Positions 1,727 to 63,673 of a DNA stretch of 64,000 nt are shown here, piece by piece. This DNA is from Ophiura sarsii (taxonomy: Eukaryota > Echinodermata > Ophiuroidea > Amphilepidida > Ophiuridae). Numbering within the stretch: position 1 is the first letter of the stretch; every line of letters begins with the position of its first letter. The position numbers and the translations under genes were made by a program. Where the stretch lies: assembly GCA_035610835.1 (NCBI GenBank), contig CM069455.1, forward strand, positions 40,689,944 through 40,753,943. Direction: 5' to 3'. Below the pieces are notes generated by a model. It did not search any database. It was given only the letters and a program-made list of their open reading frames with translations, and was not told the origin of the DNA.

Positions 1727-2303
1727 ATAATCTTAAAACATTCTTAGTTTTTTTAGTCGGGTTAATTTTCAACCCGACCTTTAATCAAATGTTGAGATAC
1801 ACAGGTGGGGCCTCATTGGATAGACTAAATGAGTCAGACGATGGAGGGTTTCAGAAAGAAAAGTGGGCCCAGCATTAAAACAAAGAGTTTTTGTTAAAAT
1901 ACATCATACACTGTCTAAATCTTCTTTTTTTAATATTTCCTTTGTGTCGTCAGTTAATTTCATTTTAGGATGTTGACCAGTTTTTTGTAAATACCTTGTT
2001 TAACTTGTCCTATACCTAGTTAAAGGAATTGTTTTATCATTCCGAAACGTCGGTCCCCATGTTATTGTGTTGTTTCTTTTGCCTTTTAATTGTCCCATCC
2101 TTGGATGTTGTCATTGCACACCTTTTTAGTCATTTCAATAATTACCTATTACCTAGCTGCTCAATGAAAATGACATTAAGACATGCGCAGTCTGTGTATT
2201 GTTTTATATAACTTCTCAATCACGATGCGCAGTCTCCATTTGCAAATGATATATAATCTGTCATTTCGTTTTTAACATTTACCATTTCTCTCACAGCTGC
2301 AGA

Positions 2304-2382
2304 ATGGCTGTAATACTTATCTACACTCTGTTTGTGGCAGGACTTGTCAAGATGACTACGGCGTCTCAAGTATCCAATAATC
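2304..2382 (+). CDS. Candidate first coding exon with signal peptide (partial gene)
   Basis: An ATG at 2304 opens a 26-codon frame starting MAVILIYTLFVAGLVKM, a hydrophobic stretch that looks like a signal peptide. The frame runs into a consensus splice donor (C|GTGAGT, intron starting 2383). A pyrimidine-rich acceptor-like TTTCTCTCACAG lies just upstream of the ATG, so the exon could begin with a little 5' UTR. I found no following exon, and the mature protein is unknown. A chance combination of a short hydrophobic frame and a donor site remains possible. Confidence 0.35.
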
Positions 2383-2861
2383 GTGAGTAATTCGTATTTT
2401 TAATGCAATATAGTCGTAACGGCTTCGCTATGATATACTTTTGCAGGGAAGAATTTGTCGTATTTCATAAGATATATTTTCAATTATTAAAAGTTAACTG
2501 AAGACTCATCTGTTTCCTACTTAATTGTTCTTTCTGTATACATGTACTACTAGTTTTTATTGGTACATTTTGATTTGTTTGTGGATTGTACCTTTTTGTT
2601 TTGTTTGTTTGCTGCCAGCGCCGTGATCTAAATGAAATAGCGCTTTATAAAAGCTCATATGTATGTATGTATATGTAATCCATGATGTAACTGAAGTGTT
2701 TGTCCGTTTGTCTCAGGTAGCCAATTTAATTAGAACCAAGCCACGCGTACTGAACCTAAAATTCCATGCATTATGAAGGGCCAGAGGCCTATTATTATAC
2801 AATGAATAACATTAAATAATTAATTAAGTCATCTTTAAGACAACCTTGCTAATGCTATGTT
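2383..2861. other. Intergenic or intronic DNA with SINE/LINE-tail-like motif
   Basis: No gene is seen. Around 2630-2680 the sequence GCGCTTTATAAAAG is followed by ATGT repeats, a form common at 3' tails of invertebrate SINE/LINE copies. The assignment is weak. Confidence 0.3.
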
Positions 2862-3435
2862 TGGGTTTTATAAAAGAGTGAAAAAGAAAGCACGTACTAT
2901 AATATACTAATTATATTGGCTAAGCTATGCATAAATTAATTTAAATATAAGAAACATCTAAATTTTATTTGAAAAAGAGTTAAATATAAGAGAATTGGTT
3001 TTTTTAAATTGAATAATAATACAAATAATAAAAAACCCAAAAAACACCACTATAACACAATTATGTAATGTAATATGATTGTTTTGTTCGGTTGTTTTGT
3101 TTCTCTTTATTAAATAAATGGTTTATTTATAAAAGAGTTCCATATGAGGAAATGATTATCATTATAGCTGGAATACTTTACTATTTTGTTTTTAAATTGT
3201 ATGTGACAAGTTTAAAGAGATATTTGTGGTTATGAAAAAAGAATCTTGAAAAGAATTGTTTAATTTTACTCTATGAAAAAGAAGCAATTAGAAATATGCA
3301 AGAACGTGTTTTTGGCTTGGGTTTTATAAAAGATGAAAAAGAAACCCAGTAAATATATAGACTAATTATAATTGCAAAGCTATAGGACCTATGCAAACTG
3401 AAATTTAAATATGAGAAACATCCAAATTTGATATT
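2862..3435. repeat. Diverged direct repeat pair (about 115 bp each)
   Basis: The segment at 2862-2970 recurs with substitutions at 3318-3435. Both begin with a TTGGGTTTTATAAAAGA block and continue through a run ending in AGAAACATC(T/C)AAATTT. No TIR or coding content is evident. Confidence 0.55.
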
Positions 3436-42790: not shown

Positions 42791-43150
42791 TTAGCACAAC
42801 ATAAAACCTGATTCCAGTTGACAATAGGAGTTATCTTCAATTTTATATGTTACTTGCTTATCAGACTCATGTCTTCTATTTCTGCAACCACTTGCCTCTT
42901 TCAAGCTTGCACAAAATTCTTGCAATCCATCATATCTGTCGGCAACGATGTGGACGAACTTGCATCCTTTTAGATGTTGTGCTATACTTCTTGGCAATAT
43001 TCGTTTTGTAAAACACTTTGCTGTCTCGTCATCCTTTGGGCTGTATCTCCGGATAACACTCATGAGATCAACGATGAATGTACACAATTCATTTGCATGC
43101 ACAGTATCCTCAGGATTGACCGTCCATGTCATTTTCCCCCGGAAAATCAT
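42791..43150 (-). pseudogene. Fragment of an unnamed multicopy invertebrate protein family
   Basis: On the minus strand 119 codons read through MTWTVNPEDTVHANELCTFI, VDLMSVIRRYSPKDDETAKC and a KFVHIVADRYDGLQEFCASL region, then basic CRNRRHES. The block with (I/V)D..A, then H(I/V)V.DRYD and SLK.A...RR is what I recall from the middle of the same family whose decayed plus-strand copy lies at 48955-52175. Upstream on the minus strand a frame shift leads into the 18-bp minisatellite. Other parts of the gene are not identifiable here. Function unknown. Confidence 0.5.
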
Positions 43151-43164
43151 CTCGTTCGGCTACG

Positions 43165-43985
43165 CTATCTACTTCCACCACATCCCCTGCTTCTGCTATG
43201 TTCTCTGGTTCTGCTATGTCTTCTGCTTCTGCTATATCCCCTGCTTCTACTACGTCCTCGGCTTCTTCTACGTCCTCTGCTTCTACTACGTCCTCTGCTT
43301 CTTCTACGTCCTTCGGGTATGTCTCCTGCTATGTTCTGCTTCTGCTTTGTCCTCTCGGTCGGCTATGTCCTCTCGTTCGGCTATGTCCTCTCGTTCGGCT
43401 ATGCCCTCTCGTTCGGCTATGTTCTCTCATTCGGCTATGTCCTCTCGTTCGGCTATGTCCTCTCGTTCGGCTATGTTCTCTCGTTCGGCTATGTCCTCTC
43501 GTTCGGCTATGTCCTCTCATTCGGCTATGTACTCTCGTTCGGCTATGTCCTCTCGTTCGAATATGTTCTCTCGTTCGGCTATGTCCTCTCGTTCGGCTAT
43601 GTCCTCTCGTTCGGCTATGTCCTCTCATTCGGCTATGTCCTCTCGTTCGGCTATGTTCTCTCGTTAGGCTATGTTCTTTATTTTGGATATGTTCTCTACT
43701 TCTGCTATGTCCTCTGCTTCTCCTATGCAATATTGTCCTGATATGTCTTCTGCTTCTGCTATGTCCTCTACTTCTACTACGTCCTCTGCTTCAGCTATGT
43801 CTTCTGCTATGTCCTCTCATTCGGCTATGTTCTCTCGCTCGGCTATGTTCTCTACTTCTGCTAAGTCCTCTTCGTCTGATATGCCATCTTGTTCGTCCAA
43901 GTCCTCAGCTTCTACTATGTCCTTTGCTTTTGCTATATCTTCTGCTTCTGCTATGTCCTCTGTTCCTCTGCTCCAACTATGCCAT
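43165..43985 (-). repeat. 18-bp minisatellite with acidic REDIAE-type frame on minus
   Basis: About 25 tandem copies of TTCGGCTATGTCCTCTCG, with edges degenerating to TTCTGCTATGTCCTCTGC-type units. All three frames on plus and one on minus stay open because 18 is divisible by three. On the minus strand one frame reads REDIAE/AEDIVEAED-type hexapeptides that continue into the degenerate edges (EEAEDVVEAEDVEEAED). This suggests expansion of a coding acidic repeat. The frame does not join the adjacent 42791-43150 fragment without a shift. Confidence 0.8.
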
Positions 43986-44067
43986 CTTGTTCGGTTCTCT
44001 CATATTTGTTTGCTTTGTTGTCAGTATGTTTGCAAAAATGCTGCCTTATTTTCTGATCTAAGGTAAA

Positions 44068-52175: not shown

Positions 52176-52841
52176 GGCCAGGTAAACTAAGGATGGATTC
52201 AGAGCCCACCGTACTATTAACAAGACATCCAAGTCCAACATATTACAGTTCAAAGTTGCAGGGTTCCGAATGCACACTGTATCCATAGATGTGATCTTGC
52301 CAGCAATAAGTTAATCTATACAACGAGTGTAATGGACATGCACCAGTATAGTTTTTGATCGGTATGATTAAAGGGAATTAAACGCCACTAAAGCGCTGAA
52401 AAAGTATAACCTAAGGACCTTCATGCAGTGTACAATTCAAGTGTGCATTCAAGGTCCCAGCCATACATGATTTATATCCAAGTTATTTATAGTTTTAATG
52501 TGTGTAATGTTTGTCTCTGTCTCTGTCTTCCATGCCTGTATGTTGGTCGGTCTGTCATTGATGGGCCAACATCATGTCCTGGGGGTTTATGTACATTAGA
52601 TGAAGAATGATAAAATAATAATACCGCACAAACCTTATTTTATAGTGTCATAACTGTAACCAGGATTGTCCTTCGAAACTACAACTTTTGAAAGTGCATT
52701 ATATCCCATAAAACAGTAAAATTCCAAATTGGTGTATCTCAATCACACCATTAAAGGCATAAGTCCACTATGGCTACACATAGTTCCAACTAAAGTTAAT
52801 GCCAGGTGTGTGCACTAATCACTCCTGTACACAGTTCTAAT
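52176..52841. other. Flank between the decayed gene and the retroelement
   Basis: No additional gene is recognised here. Confidence 0.45.
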
Positions 52842-52866
52842 CTACAACTTCTTCATCATCAACTTC

Positions 52867-52899
<33 letters not shown>

Positions 52900-52915
52900 T
52901 TTTTCTCCACCAATT
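52842..52915 (-). CDS. Possible C-terminal exon end with poly-acidic tail
   Basis: On the minus strand a frame reads GGEK followed by nine Asp, then EEVDDEEVVD and a TAG (52844-52842). A CAT/GAT triplet repeat accounts for much of it, but the regular EEVDDEEVVD and stop resemble an acidic protein tail. The Penelope-like element ends immediately upstream on this strand, so the rest of the exon, if any, has been displaced. Simple-repeat origin is the main alternative. Confidence 0.25.
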
Positions 52916-53777
52916 TTTACAATGGGGGGTGGGAGGGTAACAAGGGTACCTGCTTTCGGACGACCAAACTAACTCTTTTAAAACCACCGATTTTAAAATG
53001 CTATAATAGAAGTTCAAACTAGAAAATCTAAAATATGTAGCATTTGAAGACAGAAAACTTTTATTTATTTAATAAATTAAATAAATTAAAAGGTAGGCTA
53101 AAACCGGCAAACACTGTGTCGGGCGTGAACTTGTAAAATTCAATCATATTATCTTAATGAAAGATATAACAGTTTTATACCGTAAAAACTGAAATTGAAG
53201 TGTATTCATTTACTTCAAGTAATATATTAGATTTATTCCGTAAAAACTTTTACGGATCTTAAAATTATATTCCGAACTTAGAACATTAAGGAACGTTAAA
53301 AACATTCCCGTGGATGAATCAATGATTATCTGAACTTCCAAAACTCAGTTCAGTAAAAAGCCGTGCAGCTTTAACGTTGCATTTTTGAGAAAATTGTAGA
53401 GCAGTGAGTATATTCAATTCTTTGAATAAAGAGATGGGGAGTCGTGTTTTCATAAAATAGAACCACTTAAAAAAGCTAACTTGCTTTTACCCCTAAAATC
53501 AAATGTAAAGAACATTTAATTAAATAAGAGAGAAAGTATGATTTTACTACTATCATATAATGGAAGCTTACTTGCTTACTTTTTAAAGTTAATTAACTAA
53601 ATTATTTTTTATTTTATTATTCATAACTTTGAATCTATAGTTTATTAACATACTGACATTTCACAAAACTCTTTTTGGAAGATAGGGTGGCCCTAAAAAG
53701 GGCCGTTGAAAACAGAGGTAGTGCTTCCTCCGTTCTTTTGTGGCTCTGAAAAGAGCCGTTGATAAAACCTCAAAGGC

Positions 53778-54569
53778 TTACTGCCTCTGGTCAACTGATC
53801 TCTGCCAGTTGTTACGCCTGTTGAAACTCCGTTGGTTGTTGTAGCTAGGACGGCCGTCTTGTCGTCTCTTTTTTCCTTGATGATGCTCTTGGCTTGACTG
53901 CTGGTTGGTTTGCTTTCTCTTCTTTGCTGGTTGGCGTCGTTGTTCCACTAGGGTCTTCCTCGTTTGGTTTATCCTCGCGCACTCATCCAAAAAATACTTT
54001 AATGCGTCCCTCTGCTCCTCTTCCGGTATAGTCTTTTTCATCTTTTCCTCTGCGGCCAGCCTGATGGTAGCTATTGCTTGCAGCGACTCTGGGAGCACGT
54101 ACACCTCCAAATCCGTCACCCATAAATCTATAAACTCGCGCTCTTGTGCTTTTTGTAAGGTTTCGGCTTGCGTCCGAGCCCTGGCTGAGAACTTACAACC
54201 AGGAGCAAGGCCAGGGATACCCCGGTCAGCGCGCAATTCTTTTGGTACTTCTCTTGCACCCGCGAGCATTTCACGTAATTTCCTGCGCTTTTCTAGCAGA
54301 ATTGTGTAGGCAACGACACTTCGTTCTACTAAAATTAAATGGTCGCCAACCTCTGTCAAACTGACTTTGGAAAGCTCTTGACCAATTTCACGCGGCGGTG
54401 TTTTACGCTGAGGCTGGCCTGGTTGGATCTGTGACGTGTCTGAGAGCTGGCTAGGTTCTGCTGGGCTGCTGGGCTCTGCTAGGCTGCTTGAAGGAGGCTG
54501 CGATGGTGATGTAGAGATGGTTGATCTTGGACGAGGACCGCGAGACGACTTAGTGCTTAGTTTACTCAT
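53778..54569 (-). CDS. Gag-like 263-aa ORF of the Penelope-like element
   Basis: Intact frame from ATG at 54569. Residues 1-60 are Ser/Pro/Gln-rich and probably disordered. Residues 65-190 are predicted largely helical (EVGDHLILVERSVVAYTILL, KRRKLREML and SLQAIATIRLAAEEKMKK). From about 200 the tail is strongly basic and Gln/Asn/Arg-rich (RRQPAKKRKQTNQQSSQEHH, KKRRQDGRPSYNNQRSFNRR), suiting RNA binding. No zinc knuckle is present. PLEs often encode a small ORF besides RT; here it lies downstream of both RT and ribozyme, instead of upstream of RT. If transcripts are processed HHR to HHR, it becomes the first ORF of the monomer. A Gag-like role is inferred from composition and context only. Confidence 0.7.
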   Translation of the reverse strand: MSKLSTKSSRGPRPRSTISTSPSQPPSSSLAEPSSPAEPSQLSDTSQIQPGQPQRKTPPREIGQELSKVSLTEVGDHLILVERSVVAYTILLEKRRKLREMLAGAREVPKELRADRGIPGLAPGCKFSARARTQAETLQKAQEREFIDLWVTDLEVYVLPESLQAIATIRLAAEEKMKKTIPEEEQRDALKYFLDECARINQTRKTLVEQRRQPAKKRKQTNQQSSQEHHQGKKRRQDGRPSYNNQRSFNRRNNWQRSVDQRQ

Positions 54570-55026
54570 GTTGATGCTTGAGTGCAGAATGATGCTGTCT
54601 GACTAGACAACTTCCCCTTTTATGGAGAAACGAAGGATCCTACGAGGTAGTGAAATTAACAGACCGTGGTTCTATTGACCAATGAAATTCGTCGCCTTGT
54701 GCGTGTCAGTTCTACCTGACTAGGTAGAAGTGATGTATGAGTAATGGCGGGAATTCCATATAATGAAGAGACAAATACCTTTACTTAGGTAGAAAATATT
54801 CTACAGCTGAGAATATTTTGAAGCTGGAAATCATAACCAAATAAATAAATAAATGAATAAAACCAAATATAATAGGTTAGAAGAATATCAAAATTAAAGG
54901 AGACATTCATCCTACTAAATTGATTCAGTAAAGAGTAGACCAAAAAGAAGTATAGGTGAAATCTTTACCTATACCAGTTTTGAAAAAAGTAAATTAACCA
55001 TCACTGTCTAGTTTTGGTTTTGGCAT

Positions 55027-55077
55027 GCAGTTCGTTAGACACATGTTTCGGACTCTTCCTCATCAGTAACATACTGC
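55027..55077 (-). ncRNA. Type I hammerhead ribozyme of the Penelope-like element
   Basis: On the minus strand every core element is present: CTGATGA (55066-55060), stem II GGA/TCC with AGAG loop, GAAA (55049-55046), a short stem III (ACA/TGT with TG loop) and the cleavage-site C at 55038. Stem I has two helices, GTTA/TAAC and GCAG/CTGC, separated by an internal loop (TAT versus GAA) suitable for loop-loop contact with loop II. The weak stem III is typical of PLE and retrozyme hammerheads, which often work as dimers. It lies between RT and the downstream ORF, sense with both. Confidence 0.92.
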
Positions 55078-55538
55078 TCAGGTCTATAAAAGACCAATGC
55101 TAATTTCAACAGATAAATTAAAATCTGAGAGAAGAAAAATAACTTCCTTCTTGTGATGTATAGTCCATAAAACCTAGTCATGGAAAAATACATCAACGGT
55201 AAACTCGCTAGTTTGCCGCGTGGTAATACATGGAACGGTACTTTAGAATGCGTAGTACTCTTGGTTCAAATACGGGTGACCAACTGGTGAACCGCTTTAA
55301 CTCTTTAAAAATGTGTTTGTTTTATAAAAAAACTGTAGACTGACTAGTCCACTTTATAACTTTAGAAGTTATAGTGACTCTGAAAAAGAGCCGTGTTCAC
55401 GGGAAAACTTCCCTGTAAAATTACGGTAAACTAACCGCATGTAGGATTAATCTCGTGATTAATTTTCTATAGGGAAAGCGTGTTTAAAACTATCCCAAAA
55501 TTTATTATCTCCTCAAATAATAATAAATGATTCAATGT

Positions 55539-57605
55539 CTATGAATCGGAGGGGGAATCGTCGTTCTTAAAAGATAGTGACGGGAAAAATTCCTCTATAC
55601 CCCGACTCTCCAAAAGGAGGTCCTCTAAAATGTTTAGAGTTTGTGATCCGTCGCGTGGATCTTGGTTTTCATATTCTAAATCATTATCTAGAACTTTTAG
55701 TCGTGCCCTAACCAAAGAGTCCCGTAGATTAGCTGTCCTACTATAGGCTATAATAGGAAAATCTGGGAAAACTTTCTTGAGGTCGGGTTGTTCATTGATA
55801 ATGTCCCAATGCCTCCGAAGTGCTTTCTTGACGTGTTTGGTAGAGATGTGTGGGTGATAATTCATTTTGAAAACTAGCGGAATTTTGTCATCGCTCTGTT
55901 TTTCTGCAATGAATTGATTCCTCTCCTGAAAAGCAACTTCGCGTGCTGCTTTTTGTATTTCTTTTTCACTATATCCCCTTGCTAGGAGTTTTTCTGTGAA
56001 GTTAGCTTTCTTGTCTTCATATGATTGCAGGTTGTTTGAGTTTCGTACGTATCTGATCAGTTCTCCTTTGATGAAACCCTTGAAAACTGCAGGGTTGTGG
56101 CATGATGATCTGTCTAGATAACACCATGTTTCTGTGGGTTTGGTGAAACATCTAACATCTAAGATGTTCAGCGTTCTAAAACGCTCACCTTTGTAGATTA
56201 CTAAATCCAGAAACTGGATTTCTTGTGTTGATGCTGTGTATGTGAACTTCAAAGTCGGGTGTAAAGTATTAATTCTAGTAATAAAAGCTTCCAAATCTGT
56301 TTGTGAACCTTTCCAGGTTAGAAAACAGTCGTCCATATAAATGTAAAATGAAACCACGTTTTCATCCATGTTCATAAATCTTTGAACAAGTTTGTTAACT
56401 ACTAGGCAGCATAAACTCGGGCTGCTTCTAAGTCCCATCGGACATCCAGCTATTTGAAGGAAGAAATCTTTGTTGAATTGAAATGCGTTGCGGTATAAAA
56501 CTAATTTGATTAGTTTACTCATGAACGCCAAACTAGGCATTCGAGGGTCACAGGAGCGTGGATCGACTTTTGCGAGCGTTTCCATTGCGATCTCATAAGC
56601 TTCTTCCTGTGGAATTGATGTGAACATGCTTTCGACATCTATACACGCTAATAAAATCTCTTTTGGTAGAACCAAATTTTCAACCTTTCTAATAGTGTCA
56701 GCTGTATCTTTCAAATATGCTGGTGATTTTTTCACTTCTGGTAGTAGGTAAAAGTCTATAAATTCTGCTATTCTGTTCAGCGGTGATGCGACTGAAGAGA
56801 TGACCGGCCGTCCTATAAAAACTTGGCCCGGTAATTTCACTTTCTTGTGAATTTTAGGAAGCATAAAGAAAACCGGAGTTTTCGTTTCATTGCTTGTTTT
56901 TGGATCTAGATAATTTGCTAAAGCCTTGTCTATTTGCTTGGCTTTGAATATTTCACATACTAGTTCACTGACCATTTCTGCCGTGTGAGATGTCATATCA
57001 TAATCTAGTCTTAGATATGATTTTCTATCTTGAAGTTGGCGTAGGCCTTCTTTAATATAGTCCTCTCTGGACATTACACAGATACCTCTCCCTTTGTCGA
57101 ATTTCTTTAAGACTATGTTATGATTTTTCCCTAGTCTTGTAACAGCCTTAAACTCGGCTTCACTGATGTTGCGATGTACGTTTGTGATCGGAACTTTATT
57201 AAGTTCCGTTCTCATACCTTCTAGGAAATCTTCCAGTGCCAAACTCGGCACTGGCCCTGGTGTCCATGTGGATGGGTTCCTAAATTTGTGTCTGGGTCCC
57301 CATCGTTTAATGGATGCTAAATATCTAATACGCATAGTTCTCTGTAGCACGTCTGCAGCTTCCATAAAGACATTTTTATTTGGCTTATTTGGATTTGGAA
57401 TGAAGTTCAAGCCTTTTCCAAGAGCTAGGATTTCTGTGTTTGTCAGTTCATACTTTGACAAATTGATTACAAATTGTTTGGCTTTTTCCACTGAGAGAAG
57501 ATATGAATCTTCCTTAGTTTTTACTTTCCAAACTTTACGTTGTTTCTTGTATCGTTGCTTATGGCTACAAGCTGTGCCCTTATTCTTTCTAAAAAAACGA
57601 CCCAT
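55539..57605 (-). CDS. Penelope-like reverse transcriptase, 688 aa, no visible GIY-YIG domain
   Basis: Uninterrupted frame from ATG at 57605. A basic N-terminus is followed by ALGKGLNFIPNP (about 61-72), a PLE hallmark. Next come KKFDKGRGICV (167-177), LPKIHK (249-254) and GRPVIS (265-270). Motif A is ACIDVESMFTSIP (catalytic Asp about 323), motif B GCPMGLRSSPS (about 388-398), motif C YMDD (423-426, catalytic Asp pair) and then STQEIQFLDLVIY. The thumb ends with YSRTANLRDSLVRARL (about 621-636), the conserved PLE motif normally followed by a Cys-rich linker and GIY-YIG nuclease. Here only about 50 further residues follow, acidic and without GIY or YIG. Neither does the N-terminus show a GIY-YIG. 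It therefore resembles endonuclease-deficient PLEs such as the Athena/Coprina type, although subfamily placement needs phylogeny. All catalytic residues are intact. Confidence 0.93.
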   Translation of the reverse strand: MGRFFRKNKGTACSHKQRYKKQRKVWKVKTKEDSYLLSVEKAKQFVINLSKYELTNTEILALGKGLNFIPNPNKPNKNVFMEAADVLQRTMRIRYLASIKRWGPRHKFRNPSTWTPGPVPSLALEDFLEGMRTELNKVPITNVHRNISEAEFKAVTRLGKNHNIVLKKFDKGRGICVMSREDYIKEGLRQLQDRKSYLRLDYDMTSHTAEMVSELVCEIFKAKQIDKALANYLDPKTSNETKTPVFFMLPKIHKKVKLPGQVFIGRPVISSVASPLNRIAEFIDFYLLPEVKKSPAYLKDTADTIRKVENLVLPKEILLACIDVESMFTSIPQEEAYEIAMETLAKVDPRSCDPRMPSLAFMSKLIKLVLYRNAFQFNKDFFLQIAGCPMGLRSSPSLCCLVVNKLVQRFMNMDENVVSFYIYMDDCFLTWKGSQTDLEAFITRINTLHPTLKFTYTASTQEIQFLDLVIYKGERFRTLNILDVRCFTKPTETWCYLDRSSCHNPAVFKGFIKGELIRYVRNSNNLQSYEDKKANFTEKLLARGYSEKEIQKAAREVAFQERNQFIAEKQSDDKIPLVFKMNYHPHISTKHVKKALRRHWDIINEQPDLKKVFPDFPIIAYSRTANLRDSLVRARLKVLDNDLEYENQDPRDGSQTLNILEDLLLESRGIEEFFPSLSFKNDDSPSDS

Positions 57606-58411
57606 ATTCTTGGTCGGTTTTCTTGTTTGGAGTGCTCTGAAATATCTGAGAGCGACTTCTGCCTACGAAGTCACGGTTAAAAATGATTATTTGCTTGATG
57701 CTTCAATTAAAAAGCAAAAATTTCAGTCAGTATCGGAAAGACTCCTTTCTCGGAGCTGTTGAGCCTTGACGGCTTCTCTCATAGAAAGCGGGGTCTTTCA
57801 TCTCCCGCGCGGCTACTTTACAAACTGTAGAATGTCGATGCTCGATGTTTCTCATAGAAAGCGGCTTCTTTCATCTTCCGCGTGTCATGATTGACAGACT
57901 TTGGATGCTTTGTCTGTGTTTTCAAGTGGAATTCCTGGGGAGTTCTAAACCCGTGGGAAAGTTTAGTAGTCCATTGATACATTATTTCGCTAATTAAGCG
58001 CCGACTTGTCTGGCCGGGCGTATTTGTGAAGTTGGTGTGGCTACCAATAATAAGTTCATATCATATCGACATGCCTGTTCTGTGATGAAAACTCTTTCTT
58101 GAGTTTTTCTATTACAATTTTCTGATGAAAAATCGTAAATATAAACGGTGGTGGAAATTAGTCTCTATTTCCAAAAACCTACTGAACTTAGTAAGTTTAA
58201 AAGTTAAAAAGAGTTGAATTCAAAAATTGAATTCTGATGGAAAGACCTACAACGAGGGATTGCCTGTCCACATACCATCAGATATGTGCGTCAATACTAT
58301 CCCTAACCCTCTCCAAAACCGCAAGTATGGCAGTCATGACCTCGGAAATGTAAACACATCCAAAAGAATCACCTGTGGAACACACCGGGTTACTATATCA
58401 AACATTACAAT

Positions 58412-58480
58412 GGGGGGTGGGAGGGTAACAAGGGTACCTGCTTTCGGACGACCAAACTAACTCTTTTAAAACCACCGATT
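58412..58480 (-). mobile_element. Truncated 3' tail of an upstream Penelope-like copy
   Basis: It reads on minus AATCGGTGGTTTTAAAAGAG through CCCACCCCCCATTGTAATGT and continues directly into the 5' end of the full-length copy, so it is the tandem partner. It ends abruptly at 58480 against the plus-strand array. Sequence matches 52917-52990. Confidence 0.8.
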
Positions 58481-58520
58481 TAAAACTTGTGTATGTAGGC
58501 ACAGGTCAGTTGACCTACCC

Positions 58521-58577
58521 GCAGCCCGTGCTACTGATGAGACTCACGGAGAGTCGAAACGCGTCTAGCTACTCTGC
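58521..58577 (+). ncRNA. Hammerhead ribozyme, unit 1
   Basis: Type I fold: stem I GCAG/CTGC and GCTA/TAGC with internal loop CCCGT/TACT; CTGATGA at 58534-58540; 5-bp stem II GACTC/GAGTC with ACGGA loop; GAAA at 58556-58559; minimal palindromic stem III (ACGCGT); cleavage-site C at 58565. The self-complementary stem III with no loop favours a dimeric hammerhead. Confidence 0.93.
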
Positions 58578-60587
58578 ATGCCGTCACCATTGTTTTATCT
58601 TAAACATGGTGGGCCTTTACTCTATAGGACATTCTCAACTTATTTGTCTCCTCCCTAGTAGTTTAAACTCAAGGGAGAGGACATTTTAAGTTAGGAATGT
58701 TAAGAAGACATATACAAAGCTCATTGTATATAAGTCACTCTAAGTCTAGAATGGCATTTGGTTTTCCGTATTAGTCCATTGGATTAATGTTGTTCTTTCC
58801 CAGAGTCATCTTAGTTACGAAAGCAAGCTAGCTTTCTTTTAGCAAACAGTTTCATAAACTTGAAGTTTCATAGTCATGAATTACCGGGTGAATTACAACA
58901 AGTCGCCTCCATCGATCATCTTTTAAAGAACGGCAAGACATGCCTTCTGTCATCGTTTTAAATAACTATCATTAAGCCAGTTCGCTTTTTGATTTATCGT
59001 AAGATAAATAGACCTACTGCCTTCTCATATAAGTTCAATATGAGCATACATGCCGCGTGTCTTTTAGTCCAACACGGAATAAAGCACATTAGGCCTACAC
59101 AACATTCAGCTAGACATTTAATTGTCAGATTTTAATAAGATATACTTTCCTAGTTTGGAAATTTATCATTCTAAATGTCGGAGAAAGAGCCAGCGTTTAT
59201 CATGTTTCATTCGGAAGCTTTTACCGTGTGACATAGAATCATATATATTTTGTGAGATAAGACAAAATAGGAATTTCAAGTCTAGAAATTCAGTGTTGTT
59301 TGTTTTAACAACACATCTAATAAGTTTTGCCACGACAAAGATTTTGTCGGACACGTTGCCTTCAGTTGATTTTCTTTTAAATCATCTTCATCAAAGTTTT
59401 CTGTTTTGGAATGCTACTTATTTTAGATTTTCTAGTTTGAATTTCTATTGTAGCATTTTACAATCGGTGGTTTTAAAAGAGTTAGTTTGGTCGTCCGAAA
59501 GCAGGTACCCTTGTTACCCTCCCACCCCCTTTGTAATGTTTGATATAGTAACCCGGTGTGTTTCACAGGTGATTCTTTTGGATGTGTTTACATTTCCGAG
59601 GTCATGACTGCCATACTTGCGGTTTTGGAGAGGGGTTAGGGATAGTATTGACGCACATATCTGATGGTATGTGGGCAGTTAATCCCTCGTTGTAGGTCTT
59701 TCCATCTGAATTCAACTCTTGAATTCAACTCTTTTTAACTTTTAAACTTACTAAGTTCAGTAGGTTTTTGGAAATAGAGACTAATTTCCACCACCGATTT
59801 TCAGCAGATAATTGTAATAGAAAAAACTCAAGAAAGAGTTTTCATCACAGAACAGGCAACTATCAACTTATTCGACATTTGATTCTTCGAGCTCTCCTTT
59901 CTCTACTTATTAAAGTAGAACACGCATTTCCCGACATTAGTAATAACTTTACTGATTGTTGTTTGAACCAAGAAAGGTTCATTTTTGTTTGGCATCTTTT
60001 CACGATTGACTAGTTAGTCAAATTCAAGGTCTTGAATATACATCCTAGCCAGGATTTTTCAACATAAATAGATAGTTTTCTATTTAATTTTAGAAAAAGT
60101 AATAGATAGTATTCTATTATTTTATATTATTACAAATGGAGGCGCAAGTGTGCACGAGTTGTACATGTGATCAACATGACTGGTAAAGATACCAGGCCTT
60201 TCATCTTTTATGACTACGCTAATTGGCATCCTTTGTTTGCTTGGATCGCCCACGGCATTGTCGACGGCCGCTTGCTCTCATTGTCCAGCATAGGACGGAG
60301 AGCATGGTCGCCATTTTGTAGTTAACCAAGAAATGGTTTAACTTTTGGGATTTGAACATGGAAAACATTCATTACAGTTTCAGGCTTTTGCCAAACTGTA
60401 TGATAGGCTTAATAGCGGCAGTTTGTCCGCGAAATGTTAGGGCCCGAGTATGGTTCCGATCAGCGAAAGTTATCTCGCTCGTTGCATAACATTTTTTATC
60501 GTCTGTGTAGTAATATAGGCAAGTTTTGCCCTGTACTTACTTAGATTTAAAACTTGTGTATGTAGGCACAGGTCAGTTGACCTACCC

Positions 60588-60644
60588 GCAGCCCGTGCTA
60601 CTGATGAGACTCACGGAGAGTCGAAACGCGTCTAGCTACTCTGC
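60588..60644 (+). ncRNA. Hammerhead ribozyme, unit 2
   Basis: Identical to the ribozyme at 58521-58577, offset by exactly 2,067 bp, with the cleavage-site C at 60632. Cleavage here and in unit 1 would release a 2,067-nt RNA. Confidence 0.93.
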
Positions 60645-62654
60645 ATGCCGTCACCATTGTTTTATCTTAAACATGGTGGGCCTTTACTCTATAGGACATT
60701 CTCAACTTATTTGTCTCCTCCCTAGTAGTTTAAACTCAAGGGAGAGGACATTTTAAGTTAGGAATGTTAAGAAGACATATACAAAGCTCATTGTATATAA
60801 GTCACTCTAAGTCTAGAATGGCATTTGGTTTTCCGTATTAGTCCATTGGATTAATGTTGTTCTTTCCCAGAGTCATCTTAGTTACGAAAGCAAGCTAGCT
60901 TTCTTTTAGCAAACAGTTTCATAAACTTGAAGTTTCATAGTCATGAATTACCGGGTGAATTACAACAAGTCGCCTCCATCGATCATCTTTTAAAGAACGG
61001 CAAGACATGCCTTCTGTCATCGTTTTAAATAACTATCATTAAGCCAGTTCGCTTTTTGATTTATCGTAAGATAAATAGACCTACTGCCTTCTCATATAAG
61101 TTCAATATGAGCATACATGCCGCGTGTCTTTTAGTCCAACACGGAATAAAGCACATTAGGCCTACACAACATTCAGCTAGACATTTAATTGTCAGATTTT
61201 AATAAGATATACTTTCCTAGTTTGGAAATTTATCATTCTAAATGTCGGAGAAAGAGCCAGCGTTTATCATGTTTCATTCGGAAGCTTTTACCGTGTGACA
61301 TAGAATCATATATATTTTGTGAGATAAGACAAAATAGGAATTTCAAGTCTAGAAATTCAGTGTTGTTTGTTTTAACAACACATCTAATAAGTTTTGCCAC
61401 GACAAAGATTTTGTCGGACACGTTGCCTTCAGTTGATTTTCTTTTAAATCATCTTCATCAAAGTTTTCTGTTTTGGAATGCTACTTATTTTAGATTTTCT
61501 AGTTTGAATTTCTATTGTAGCATTTTACAATCGGTGGTTTTAAAAGAGTTAGTTTGGTCGTCCGAAAGCAGGTACCCTTGTTACCCTCCCACCCCCTTTG
61601 TAATGTTTGATATAGTAACCCGGTGTGTTTCACAGGTGATTCTTTTGGATGTGTTTACATTTCCGAGGTCATGACTGCCATACTTGCGGTTTTGGAGAGG
61701 GGTTAGGGATAGTATTGACGCACATATCTGATGGTATGTGGGCAGTTAATCCCTCGTTGTAGGTCTTTCCATCTGAATTCAACTCTTGAATTCAACTCTT
61801 TTTAACTTTTAAACTTACTAAGTTCAGTAGGTTTTTGGAAATAGAGACTAATTTCCACCACCGATTTTCAGCAGATAATTGTAATAGAAAAAACTCAAGA
61901 AAGAGTTTTCATCACAGAACAGGCAACTATCAACTTATTCGACATTTGATTCTTCGAGCTCTCCTTTCTCTACTTATTAAAGTAGAACACGCATTTCCCG
62001 ACATTAGTAATAACTTTACTGATTGTTGTTTGAACCAAGAAAGGTTCATTTTTGTTTGGCATCTTTTCACGATTGACTAGTTAGTCAAATTCAAGGTCTT
62101 GAATATACATCCTAGCCAGGATTTTTCAACATAAATAGATAGTTTTCTATTTAATTTTAGAAAAAGTAATAGATAGTATTCTATTATTTTATATTATTAC
62201 AAATGGAGGCGCAAGTGTGCACGAGTTGTACATGTGATCAACATGACTGGTAAAGATACCAGGCCTTTCATCTTTTATGACTACGCTAATTGGCATCCTT
62301 TGTTTGCTTGGATCGCCCACGGCATTGTCGACGGCCGCTTGCTCTCATTGTCCAGCATAGGACGGAGAGCATGGTCGCCATTTTGTAGTTAACCAAGAAA
62401 TGGTTTAACTTTTGGGATTTGAACATGGAAAACATTCATTACAGTTTCAGGCTTTTGCCAAACTGTATGATAGGCTTAATAGCGGCAGTTTGTCCGCGAA
62501 ATGTTAGGGCCCGAGTATGGTTCCGATCAGCGAAAGTTATCTCGCTCGTTGCATAACATTTTTTATCGTCTGTGTAGTAATATAGGCAAGTTTTGCCCTG
62601 TACTTACTTAGATTTAAAACTTGTGTATGTAGGCACAGGTCAGTTGACCTACCC

Positions 62655-62711
62655 GCAGCCCGTGCTACTGATGAGACTCACGGAGAGTCGAAACGCGTCT
62701 AGCTACTCTGC
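62655..62711 (+). ncRNA. Hammerhead ribozyme, unit 3
   Basis: Identical third copy, with the cleavage-site C at 62699. Together with unit 2 it bounds another 2,067-nt monomer. Confidence 0.93.
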
Positions 62712-63673
62712 ATGCCGTCACCATTGTTTTATCTTAAACATGGTGGGCCTTTACTCTATAGGACATTCTCAACTTATTTGTCTCCTCCCTAGTAGTTTAA
62801 ACTCAAGGGAGAGGACATTTTAAGTTAGGAATGTTAAGAAGACATATACAAAGCTCATTGTATATAAGTCACTCTAAGTCTAGAATGGCATTTGGTTTTC
62901 CGTATTAGTCCATTGGATTAATGTTGTTCTTTCCCAGAGTCATCTTAGTTACGAAAGCAAGCTAGCTTTCTTTTAGCAAACAGTTTCATAAACTTGAAGT
63001 TTCATAGTCATGAATTACCGGGTGAATTACAACAAGTCGCCTCCATCGATCATCTTTTAAAGAACGGCAAGACATGCCTTCTGTCATCGTTTTAAATAAC
63101 TATCATTAAGCCAGTTCGCTTTTTGATTTATCGTAAGATAAATAGACCTACTGCCTTCTCATATAAGTTCAATATGAGCATACATGCCGCGTGTCTTTTA
63201 GTCCAACACGGAATAAAGCACATTAGGCCTACACAACATTCAGCTAGACATTTAATTGTCAGATTTTAATAAGATATACTTTCCTAGTTTGGAAATTTAT
63301 CATTCTAAATGTCGGAGAAAGAGCCAGCGTTTATCATGTTTCATTCGGAAGCTTTTACCGTGTGACATAGAATCATATATATTTTGTGAGATAAGACAAA
63401 ATAGGAATTTCAAGTCTAGAAATTCAGTGTTGTTTGTTTTAACAACACATCTAATAAGTTTTGCCACGACAAAGATTTTGTCGGACACGTTGCCTTCAGT
63501 TGATTTTCTTTTAAATCATCTTCATCAAAGTTTTCTGTTTTGGAATGCTACTTATTTTAGATTTTCTAGTTTGAATTTCTATTGTAGCATTTTACAATCG
63601 GTGGTTTTAAAAGAGTTAGTTTGGTCGTCCGAAAGCAGGTACCCTTGTTACCCTCCCACCCCCTTTGTAATGT

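Follow-up and report, generated by a model that had tools for sequence, protein, structure and literature searches.

A Penelope-like element of Ophiura sarsii with a permuted DNA unit, a predicted internal hammerhead and a histone-type signal after ORF1

INTRODUCTION

Penelope elements are already described as initiating internally, carrying tails and occurring in circularly permuted copies, and circular permutation by itself is not new (PMC11167929, PMC3846280). Poseidon of Anolis carolinensis shares with the element described here its tandem units, a hammerhead, initiation at an internal tail site and extension of both target strands (PMC11167929). Poseidon encodes its reverse transcriptase (RT) and a GIY-YIG endonuclease in one ORF, whereas the Ophiura sarsii element has a separate ORF1 and no endonuclease. 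The Poseidon start site lies ∼90 nt past the cut, as computed from the positions given in the paper, versus 2,121 nt from cut to tail-end start site here, with ORF1 between them (PMC11167929). A histone-type 3′ signal on ORF1 also sets the Ophiura element apart from Poseidon. The Penelope families of Adineta vaga likewise form inverted, head-to-head insertions with an optional tail, short junction overlaps and circularly permuted copies (PMC3846280). They carry an endonuclease, and several of their insertions have target-site duplications of 8–10 bp (PMC3846280), whereas six compound insertions here show none beyond chance (longest, 6 bases, at locus C10t). The word ribozyme is absent from the main text of that paper (PMC3846280).

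Penelope-like elements (PLEs) without an endonuclease are a known branch (PMC6431247). The endonuclease-deficient two-ORF PLEs, or Terminons, resemble our element in the missing endonuclease, the two ORFs and the hammerhead (PMC6431247). However, their ribozyme is described as 3′-terminal, next to telomeric repeats (PMC6431247), whereas here it is internal; in sampled insertions, inspection by eye found varied host flanks at the tail end and no telomeric repeats or joins. Metazoan retrozymes consist of tandem units that code for no protein and carry type I hammerheads; a circular RNA template has been proposed for them, and PLEs are their suspected helpers (PMC7229834, PMC7761336). The RZ units that accompany our element are of this kind, but their 2,067-bp unit compares with retrozyme RNAs of ∼170–400 nt (PMC7229834, PMC7761336). 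Unlike those retrozymes, RZ has a clear tail/head region in common with an RT-bearing element and alternates with it inside single insertions. Finally, replication-dependent histone mRNAs end at a stem-loop with a downstream AAAGAG core (PMC7026596). A signal of the same build here follows a non-histone retroelement ORF, unlike in histone mRNAs.

RESULTS

A compound insertion of element and RZ

The window, which is the whole 64,000-nt stretch of Ophiura sarsii DNA analysed, holds a compound insertion of an element copy and an RZ array (Table 1). Read along the minus strand, the element runs RT, hammerhead, 263-aa ORF1 and tail, the order that a sequence-only reading of this DNA had given. Positions 52917–52997 recur at 58405–58485 (81 bp, 98.8% identical): the element repeats its own tail and reaches ∼58485, not 58411. 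That reading had taken both ends as fixed; the 3′ (tail) end holds, and the 5′ end does not. RZ shares with the element only the tail/head region and a related hammerhead, and the longest RZ-unit ORF among those of at least 120 aa has 161 aa and a TTG start. Four matches to the hammerhead core pattern occur in the window, against none in 100 dinucleotide shuffles. A minimal type I hammerhead is present by sequence alone, and the lowest-energy RNAfold structure does not draw one. Separately, a candidate conserved fold at the tail/head junction did no better than shuffles.

Table 1. Features of the compound insertion, in window coordinates
Feature	Position	Strand	Remarks
Whole compound insertion	52917..63673	.	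Two head-to-head arms, both tails outward
Element copy	52917..58485	-	1.015 rounds of 5,488-nt unit, from the 81-bp repeat
Tail	52917..53064	-	End TTGTAA, likely reverse-transcription start point
SL2, histone 3′ stem-loop and downstream element	53663..53709	-	Rfam 39.1 bits (cut-off 34); AAAGAG core ∼53669-53676
SL1, histone-type stem-loop	53719..53762	-	30.8 bits, under the Rfam gathering score; some copies have it damaged or lack it
ORF1, 263 aa	53778..54569	-	Predicted helical core; basic, low-confidence C-terminus
Type I hammerhead core, element	55036..55066	-	Predicted cut 55038/55037
Degenerate histone-like loop after RT	55351..55397	-	Hairpin not conserved
RT ORF, 688 aa	55539..57605	-	YMDD present; RVT_1 E=2e-10
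Head	58072..58411	-	Directly 3′ of tail in tandem or circular form
Head-to-head junction of the arms	58477..58481	.	5-nt overlap GATTT
RZ array	58477..63673	+	2.5 copies of 2,067-bp hammerhead unit; no long ORF; units without differences
RZ hammerhead core	58534..58565 (also 60601-60632, 62668-62699)	+	Core pattern match
RZ tail/head region	59390..59858 (also 61457-61925; tail alone 63524-63673)	+	469 bp, 93% identical to element

An endonuclease-less PLE with a separate ORF1

Homologues of the RT include proteins that pair RVT_1 with GIY-YIG, a pairing that we take, following the literature, to denote PLEs. A Pfam search of the 688-aa RT ORF found no GIY-YIG endonuclease, the domain that canonical PLEs have, and in an RT tree with no named PLE reference the element falls in a clade of 27 rows, all 27 without an endonuclease. 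Two ORFs without an endonuclease are the make-up of an Athena-type two-ORF PLE, and tandem or inverted copies that share a fixed tail end are likewise PLE-like. Judged by these features and its PLE-type RT, the element is an endonuclease-less PLE. Across four copies, dN/dS of the RT is ∼0.15–0.19; ORF1 compared with four copies gives dN of 0.18–0.37 and dS from 0.83 to saturated.

ORF1 had been called Gag-like, a name we do not retain: it hits no Pfam family above cut-off, and its structure model (mean pLDDT 70) has no fold match at E ≤ 0.001 among PDB and viral models. ORF1 was also considered as a detached N-terminus of fused RTs (P0044, P0047). This resemblance, seen by eye, is unsupported by HMM search, by profile–profile comparison (probability 0.1–0.5%) and by shuffled alignments (p ≤ 0.05 in 4 of 30 comparisons). 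Viral and prokaryote contigs yielded no relatives.

A histone-type signal after ORF1

Downstream of ORF1 lie both parts of a histone-type 3′ end, namely a stem-loop above the Rfam cut-off with conserved pairing and an AAAGAG downstream element. SL2 is paired in 15/15 aligned copies, with 90/90 pair cells standard, one of the pairs being G-U. In a search of 14 stretches from 13 loci, it scores at or above the cut-off on 12 stretches and at 11 loci; locus C5 ends before reaching the stem-loops. Across six diverged copies, 51–53 of the 56 positions of the SL2 block are identical. The AAAGAG element is present in the window and in 22 of the 23 SL2 copies outside it; the 23rd, the second copy at C8a, is without part of the element. 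The stem-loops might instead be a captured relic without function, as the decay of SL1 and of the loop after RT in some copies would suggest. Against this, SL2 and AAAGAG are kept while adjacent sequence diverges, and one SL2 pair is compensatory; we consider a relic quite improbable.

A histone-type signal would likely tie ORF1 expression to DNA replication. On a retroelement gene and conserved across subfamilies, it would be a new coupling of a transposon to DNA replication; the open-access literature searched showed no earlier report of such a 3′ end on a retroelement gene. The loop after RT, tried as a second true histone signal, was rejected for lack of conservation.

A fixed tail end and a permuted DNA unit

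The Ophiura sarsii genome gave 18 hammerhead matches at 15 loci, the window included. Twelve of these loci have the same tail end, among them subfamilies ∼75% identical, and the remaining three (C14b, C5, C512) show no tail within the stretch fetched. The tail end is also common to the RZ units, otherwise unrelated to the element. Copies that start at the hammerhead and run ORF1–RT, which the sequence-only reading had named as evidence that would count against it, occur at 0/15 loci. Two loci (C11 and C5) do have their 5′ end at the cut, but both carry ORF1 and no RT, the outcome that run-off on a cut linear RNA would give.

PLE insertions are described as structurally very variable (PMC3846280), and the window copy could in principle be a chance rearrangement or a DNA-level recombinant. 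We regard this as very improbable, because the tail end is the same at 12/15 loci and no locus runs ORF1–RT from the hammerhead; the order is also the same wherever parts co-occur, diverged subfamilies included. The comparison supports the proposal, made earlier from the window alone, of a DNA unit circularly permuted relative to the RNA monomer predicted from hammerhead release.

Joins at the predicted cut

Exact-match patterns, whose counts are lower bounds, found the tail joined to the first RZ base past the cut in five matches, of which three (C7, C8, C12) are exact, without added bases, and to the first element base past the cut in one match, with four extra bases (C11). Control patterns starting 1–9 bases beyond the first post-cut base gave a single match, 7 bases beyond. 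For RZ, 40 loci were scored from 823 first-look candidates. Such tail-to-cut joins, at four places (three RZ, one element), are new here. They look as if RT ran off a cut RNA and then jumped to the tail of another. Scars at the exact predicted cut would be genomic evidence of cleavage in vivo.

The hammerhead could also be irrelevant, with RT halting at structured RNA and the cut joins reflecting pausing. In the anole PLE, hammerhead mutation left insertion in vitro unaffected, and no RNA ends were observed at the cut (PMC11167929). Here, some ends lie near the cut and not at it: RZ 1088 and ∼1104 at C7a, and two further genome matches (C9, C574) that start 6–10 bases before the cut. Pausing does not readily account for four genome-wide tail joins at the exact first post-cut base with two ribozyme sequences, to which C5 adds an element end at the cut joined to other DNA. 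We favour run-off at a cut end and hold pausing improbable.

Template switches and runs of identical units

Among 10 classified template switches within arms, at loci not chosen for cut joins and with junctions in old diverged copies not all classified, nine land on the tail end; two of these nine depart exactly at the cut and seven elsewhere. The exception, at C16, passes from element position 2941 to RZ 1577, off the tail. C16 holds three RZ sequence types: repeated full units within a type are free of mismatches, whereas between types there are 21–47; a jump marks the place where two of the types adjoin. At C8a, 1.18 rounds align over 1,004 columns with one gap and 0 mismatches, whereas the family diverges by 5%.

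The sequence-only reading had pointed to a circular or concatemeric template. Runs of identical units favour circles, which nevertheless are unproven. A competing account has RT read through linear tandem transcripts of existing arrays, with no circles. Transcription from tandem loci is reported for PLEs (PMC11167929), and the C10t array (3.3 units of 5,858 bp, 1–12 mismatches apart) and the C7a run (units 1–3 bases apart) fit such transcripts. Linear transcripts fit poorly with C16, where mismatch-free units of different types meet at a jump, and in-unit hammerheads would cut a tandem transcript: the core stands upstream, within one edit, of 31 of the 36 ribozyme 3′ halves seen. We consider linear tandem templates rather unlikely. 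Counting against circles, identical units could also arise from transcripts of already identical arrays or by DNA-level homogenisation.

A proposed replication cycle

The reading that we consider probable combines an endonuclease-less PLE with a fixed tail, a permuted DNA unit, a hammerhead and circle cycle, RZ mobilised in trans and a histone-type ORF1 end. Tandem transcripts would be cut at each hammerhead into linear monomers (ORF1, tail/head, RT), and ligation of these would give RNA circles. Reverse transcription would begin at the tail. The two ends of a DNA break probably both serve as primers, which would give two arms with their tails outward. Two fates are envisaged for RT: (i) on a circle, it would go round more than once; (ii) on a cut linear template, it would run off at the hammerhead end and then jump, in most cases onto another RNA's tail end, possibly that of an RZ unit. 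The two arms would then meet with little homology. RZ is probably mobilised in trans because RT jumps may land on RZ tails; the shared tail/head region (469 bp in RZ) and the mixed insertions point to the element as helper. The ORF1 mRNA would end at the histone-type stem-loop without a poly(A) tail, and would therefore be made mainly during host DNA replication.

New here besides the cut joins are the near-identical runs at C16 that switch type at a jump, the alternation of RZ and element, and the stem-loop and downstream element of ORF1. A fuller version of the cycle, to which we give even chances, would have the element borrow two RNA-end devices: a hammerhead that supplies 5′ ends and circles, and the histone stem-loop pathway for the ORF1 3′ end. 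Its RT would roll round circles made by the ribozyme, run off cut ends and hop between coding and non-coding RNAs at a common start site, with two-armed insertions placed in S phase. Helix III is almost missing from these hammerheads, and hammerheads with so scant a helix III may need to act as dimers.

Element layout and its recurrence in the genome

The sequence-only reading placed a reverse transcriptase (RT), a hammerhead and a 263-aa ORF in that order, and the minus strand of the window bears this out, with a tail after the ORF (table). The copy is longer than that reading gave. Because 81 bp of tail (52917-52997) are repeated upstream of the head (58405-58485), it goes round its 5,488-nt unit 1.015 times.

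Parts of the Penelope-like element (PLE), in reading order
Feature	Position	Strand	Placement
Reverse transcriptase ORF, 688 aa	57605-55539	minus	5′ of hammerhead
Type I hammerhead core	55066-55036	minus	3′ of RT ORF
ORF1, 263 aa	54569-53778	minus	3′ of hammerhead
Tail	end at 52917	minus	3′ of ORF1

The window contains four matches to the hammerhead pattern, against none across 100 shuffled sequences. The element's own ribozyme is a minimal form with helix III nearly absent, and it was not drawn in the lowest-energy fold of its region. The RT ORF matches RVT_1 (E=2e-10), and the window's protein lacks a GIY-YIG domain. Among 76 proteins with a length of 600 aa or more (75 of 120 listed homologues plus the one in the window; some are predicted and possibly cut), this domain is absent in 42, present in 32 and unclear in two; the window RT falls inside a 27-row clade (support 100) with GIY-YIG in 0/27 rows. 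Going by its relatives and published descriptions, we read the RT sequence as Penelope-like. Its dN/dS is ∼0.15-0.19 across four copies; a stop interrupts one of them.

Searching the 1.57-Gb assembly that holds the window with a hammerhead query of 301 bp yielded 18 matches, spread over 15 loci with the window counted; the 17 others were fetched with flanks. Wherever RT, hammerhead and ORF1 co-occur at these loci they do so in the same order, and the tail end was seen at 12 of the 15, with none in the fetched stretches of loci C14b, C5 and C512. Tail ends share a C-rich motif followed by TTGTAA or slight variants, or by TATAAAA in diverged subfamilies. Because tail end and part order recur across loci, the genomic arrangement belongs to the family as a whole. 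In the anole element, the start site computed from positions in PMC11167929 lies ∼90 nt past the cut; the window element has 2,121 nt, including all of ORF1, between the two. At one locus, C10t (L017-L019), 3.3 units of 5,858 bp stand in tandem; they belong to a subfamily ∼76% identical, and each unit contains a duplicated ORF1-end/tail segment.

Scars at the predicted cut and template switching

In the window, the element adjoins RZ, a non-coding, retrozyme-like hammerhead unit arrayed on the plus strand (2.5 units of 2,067 bp, identical to each other); element and array meet head-to-head and overlap by 5 nt. By blastn the two share sequence in the tail|head region only, where one unit's end meets the next unit's start (RZ 59390-59858, 469 bp, ∼93%); their hammerheads are related by motif, and both end at TTGTAA, within a few bases. 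An RZ hammerhead query of this genome returned 823 first-look candidates (40 scored) versus 18 for the element, and RZ looks far more abundant.

Several junctions fall exactly at the predicted cut. At C11, the hammerhead match (100% identity) ends at the base adjoining the cut, and the junction consists of a tail end, four extra bases and the element from its first post-cut base. At C7a, the element's tail is joined to RZ at the first base after RZ's own cut, with no extra bases. Zero-mismatch patterns, whose counts are lower bounds, found a tail, 0-8 bases and the first post-cut RZ bases at five places genome-wide, three of which are exact joins lacking extra bases (C7, C8, C12); the equivalent for the element matched once, at C11. 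As a control, RZ starts 1-9 bases past the first post-cut base gave one match, 7 bases past, in C7a. At C9 and C574, the other two of the five places, RZ starts 6-10 bases upstream of the cut, inside the core, adjoining an inverted RZ piece. We read the scars as RT run-off at ribozyme-cut 5′ ends: the enzyme would run off the cut RNA and then jump to the tail of another.

An old partial copy, C5 (L026, about 1900-3275), starts at the same first post-cut base, joined to other DNA, and breaks off shortly ahead of where SL1, the first of two stem-loops downstream of ORF1, would lie. This single case could be a retrocopy of the ORF1 message.

Switches were classified inside arms only (n=10), in loci not picked for cut joins; for pieces that are old and diverged (C7b, C8b, C10t, C14a), junctions were classified only in part. 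Nine of the ten have a tail end as their landing point (four in C7a, two in C16 and a single one in each of C8a, C7b and C11); the tenth, in C16, goes from element 2941 to RZ 1577 instead. The nine depart exactly at the cut twice, 7 bases past it once and elsewhere six times.

The minus arm of C16 holds two RZ types that meet at a jump, and its plus arm a third; types differ by 21-47 mismatches, whereas repeated full units of one type show none; a partial unit has one mismatch in 1,009, and the plus arm contains one gap. In C8a the element goes round 1.18 times, and its overlapping 1,004 columns show no mismatches and a single gap, although this copy is 5% diverged from that in the window. Because these rounds are near-identical despite the divergence between types and copies, we favour repeated copying of single circular RNAs. 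Identical tandem source arrays are a possible origin of such units too: units in the C10t array lie 1-12 mismatches apart, and those within one C7a run 1-3.

Two-armed insertions

All six compounds with both outer ends visible (window, C11, C7b, C8b, C10t, C7a) have two head-to-head arms with tails outward. Target-site duplications above chance were not found, the longest match being 6 bases (C10t). Priming from both sides of a DNA break would give this shape, and fits the extension of both strands by the anole PLE enzyme (PMC11167929). For the same shape, the A. vaga authors discuss self-priming on antisense RNA (PMC3846280). Two similar AT-rich stretches of ∼45 bp, probably host satellite, flank the C7a insertion (L012 with L027, L028); in the window a TCA microsatellite (52840-52900) adjoins the tail end.

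ORF1 and its histone-type 3′ signal

Eight ORF1 relatives were found. The modelled protein is helical, its basic tail being predicted with low confidence, and our guess is a nucleic-acid-binding helper. The ORF1 stretches compared in four copies contain no stops, and dN (0.18-0.37) is well below dS wherever estimable (0.83, 3.1, 3.3, one not calculable).

About 15 bases past the ORF1 stop lies SL1, a histone-like stem-loop scoring 30.8 bits, below the cut-off of 34; the following SL2 scores 39.1 (E=5.7e-8 for the window). Across 14 fetched stretches (13 loci), the search gave 17 matches at or above cut-off, in 12 stretches (11 loci), with none in C14b or C5. We aligned 15 of the 24 ORF1 3′ regions located, the window's included; the remainder are additional copies from C16, C7b and C10t. 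All SL2 pairs are standard in 15/15, many rows being close relatives; pair 4 is C-G in eight and U-A in seven, and pair 3 is G-U in one. Several rows have a damaged or missing SL1. An AAAGAG core, which in mammals pairs with U7 snRNA (PMC7026596), follows 22 of the 23 SL2 copies that lie outside the window. Six diverged copies keep 51-53 of 56 bases across the SL2-element block, and upstream of SL1 31 of 49 (five copies) or 46 of 55 (one), against ORF1 dS values of 0.83 to 3.3 where calculable. From SL2 conservation and by analogy with histone biology, we infer that the ORF1 message may undergo SLBP/U7 processing and S-phase timing.

Relation to known elements and other window features

PLEs are already known to initiate internally, to bear tails and hammerheads, and to form tandem and inverted copies (PMC11167929, PMC3846280, PMC6431247), and circular templates and PLE helpers have been proposed for retrozymes (PMC7229834, PMC7761336). 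As far as searches of an open-access library and the cited papers show, what is new is that scars fall exactly on the cut, that mixed insertions link a long retrozyme-like unit with its likely helper, that the start site lies between two ORFs, and that there is a histone-type 3′ end. Elsewhere in the window, 42948-44061 is repetitive, open in three overlapping frames and probably a minisatellite, and a tRNA-like match (48 bits) lies at 3663-3597 on the minus strand.
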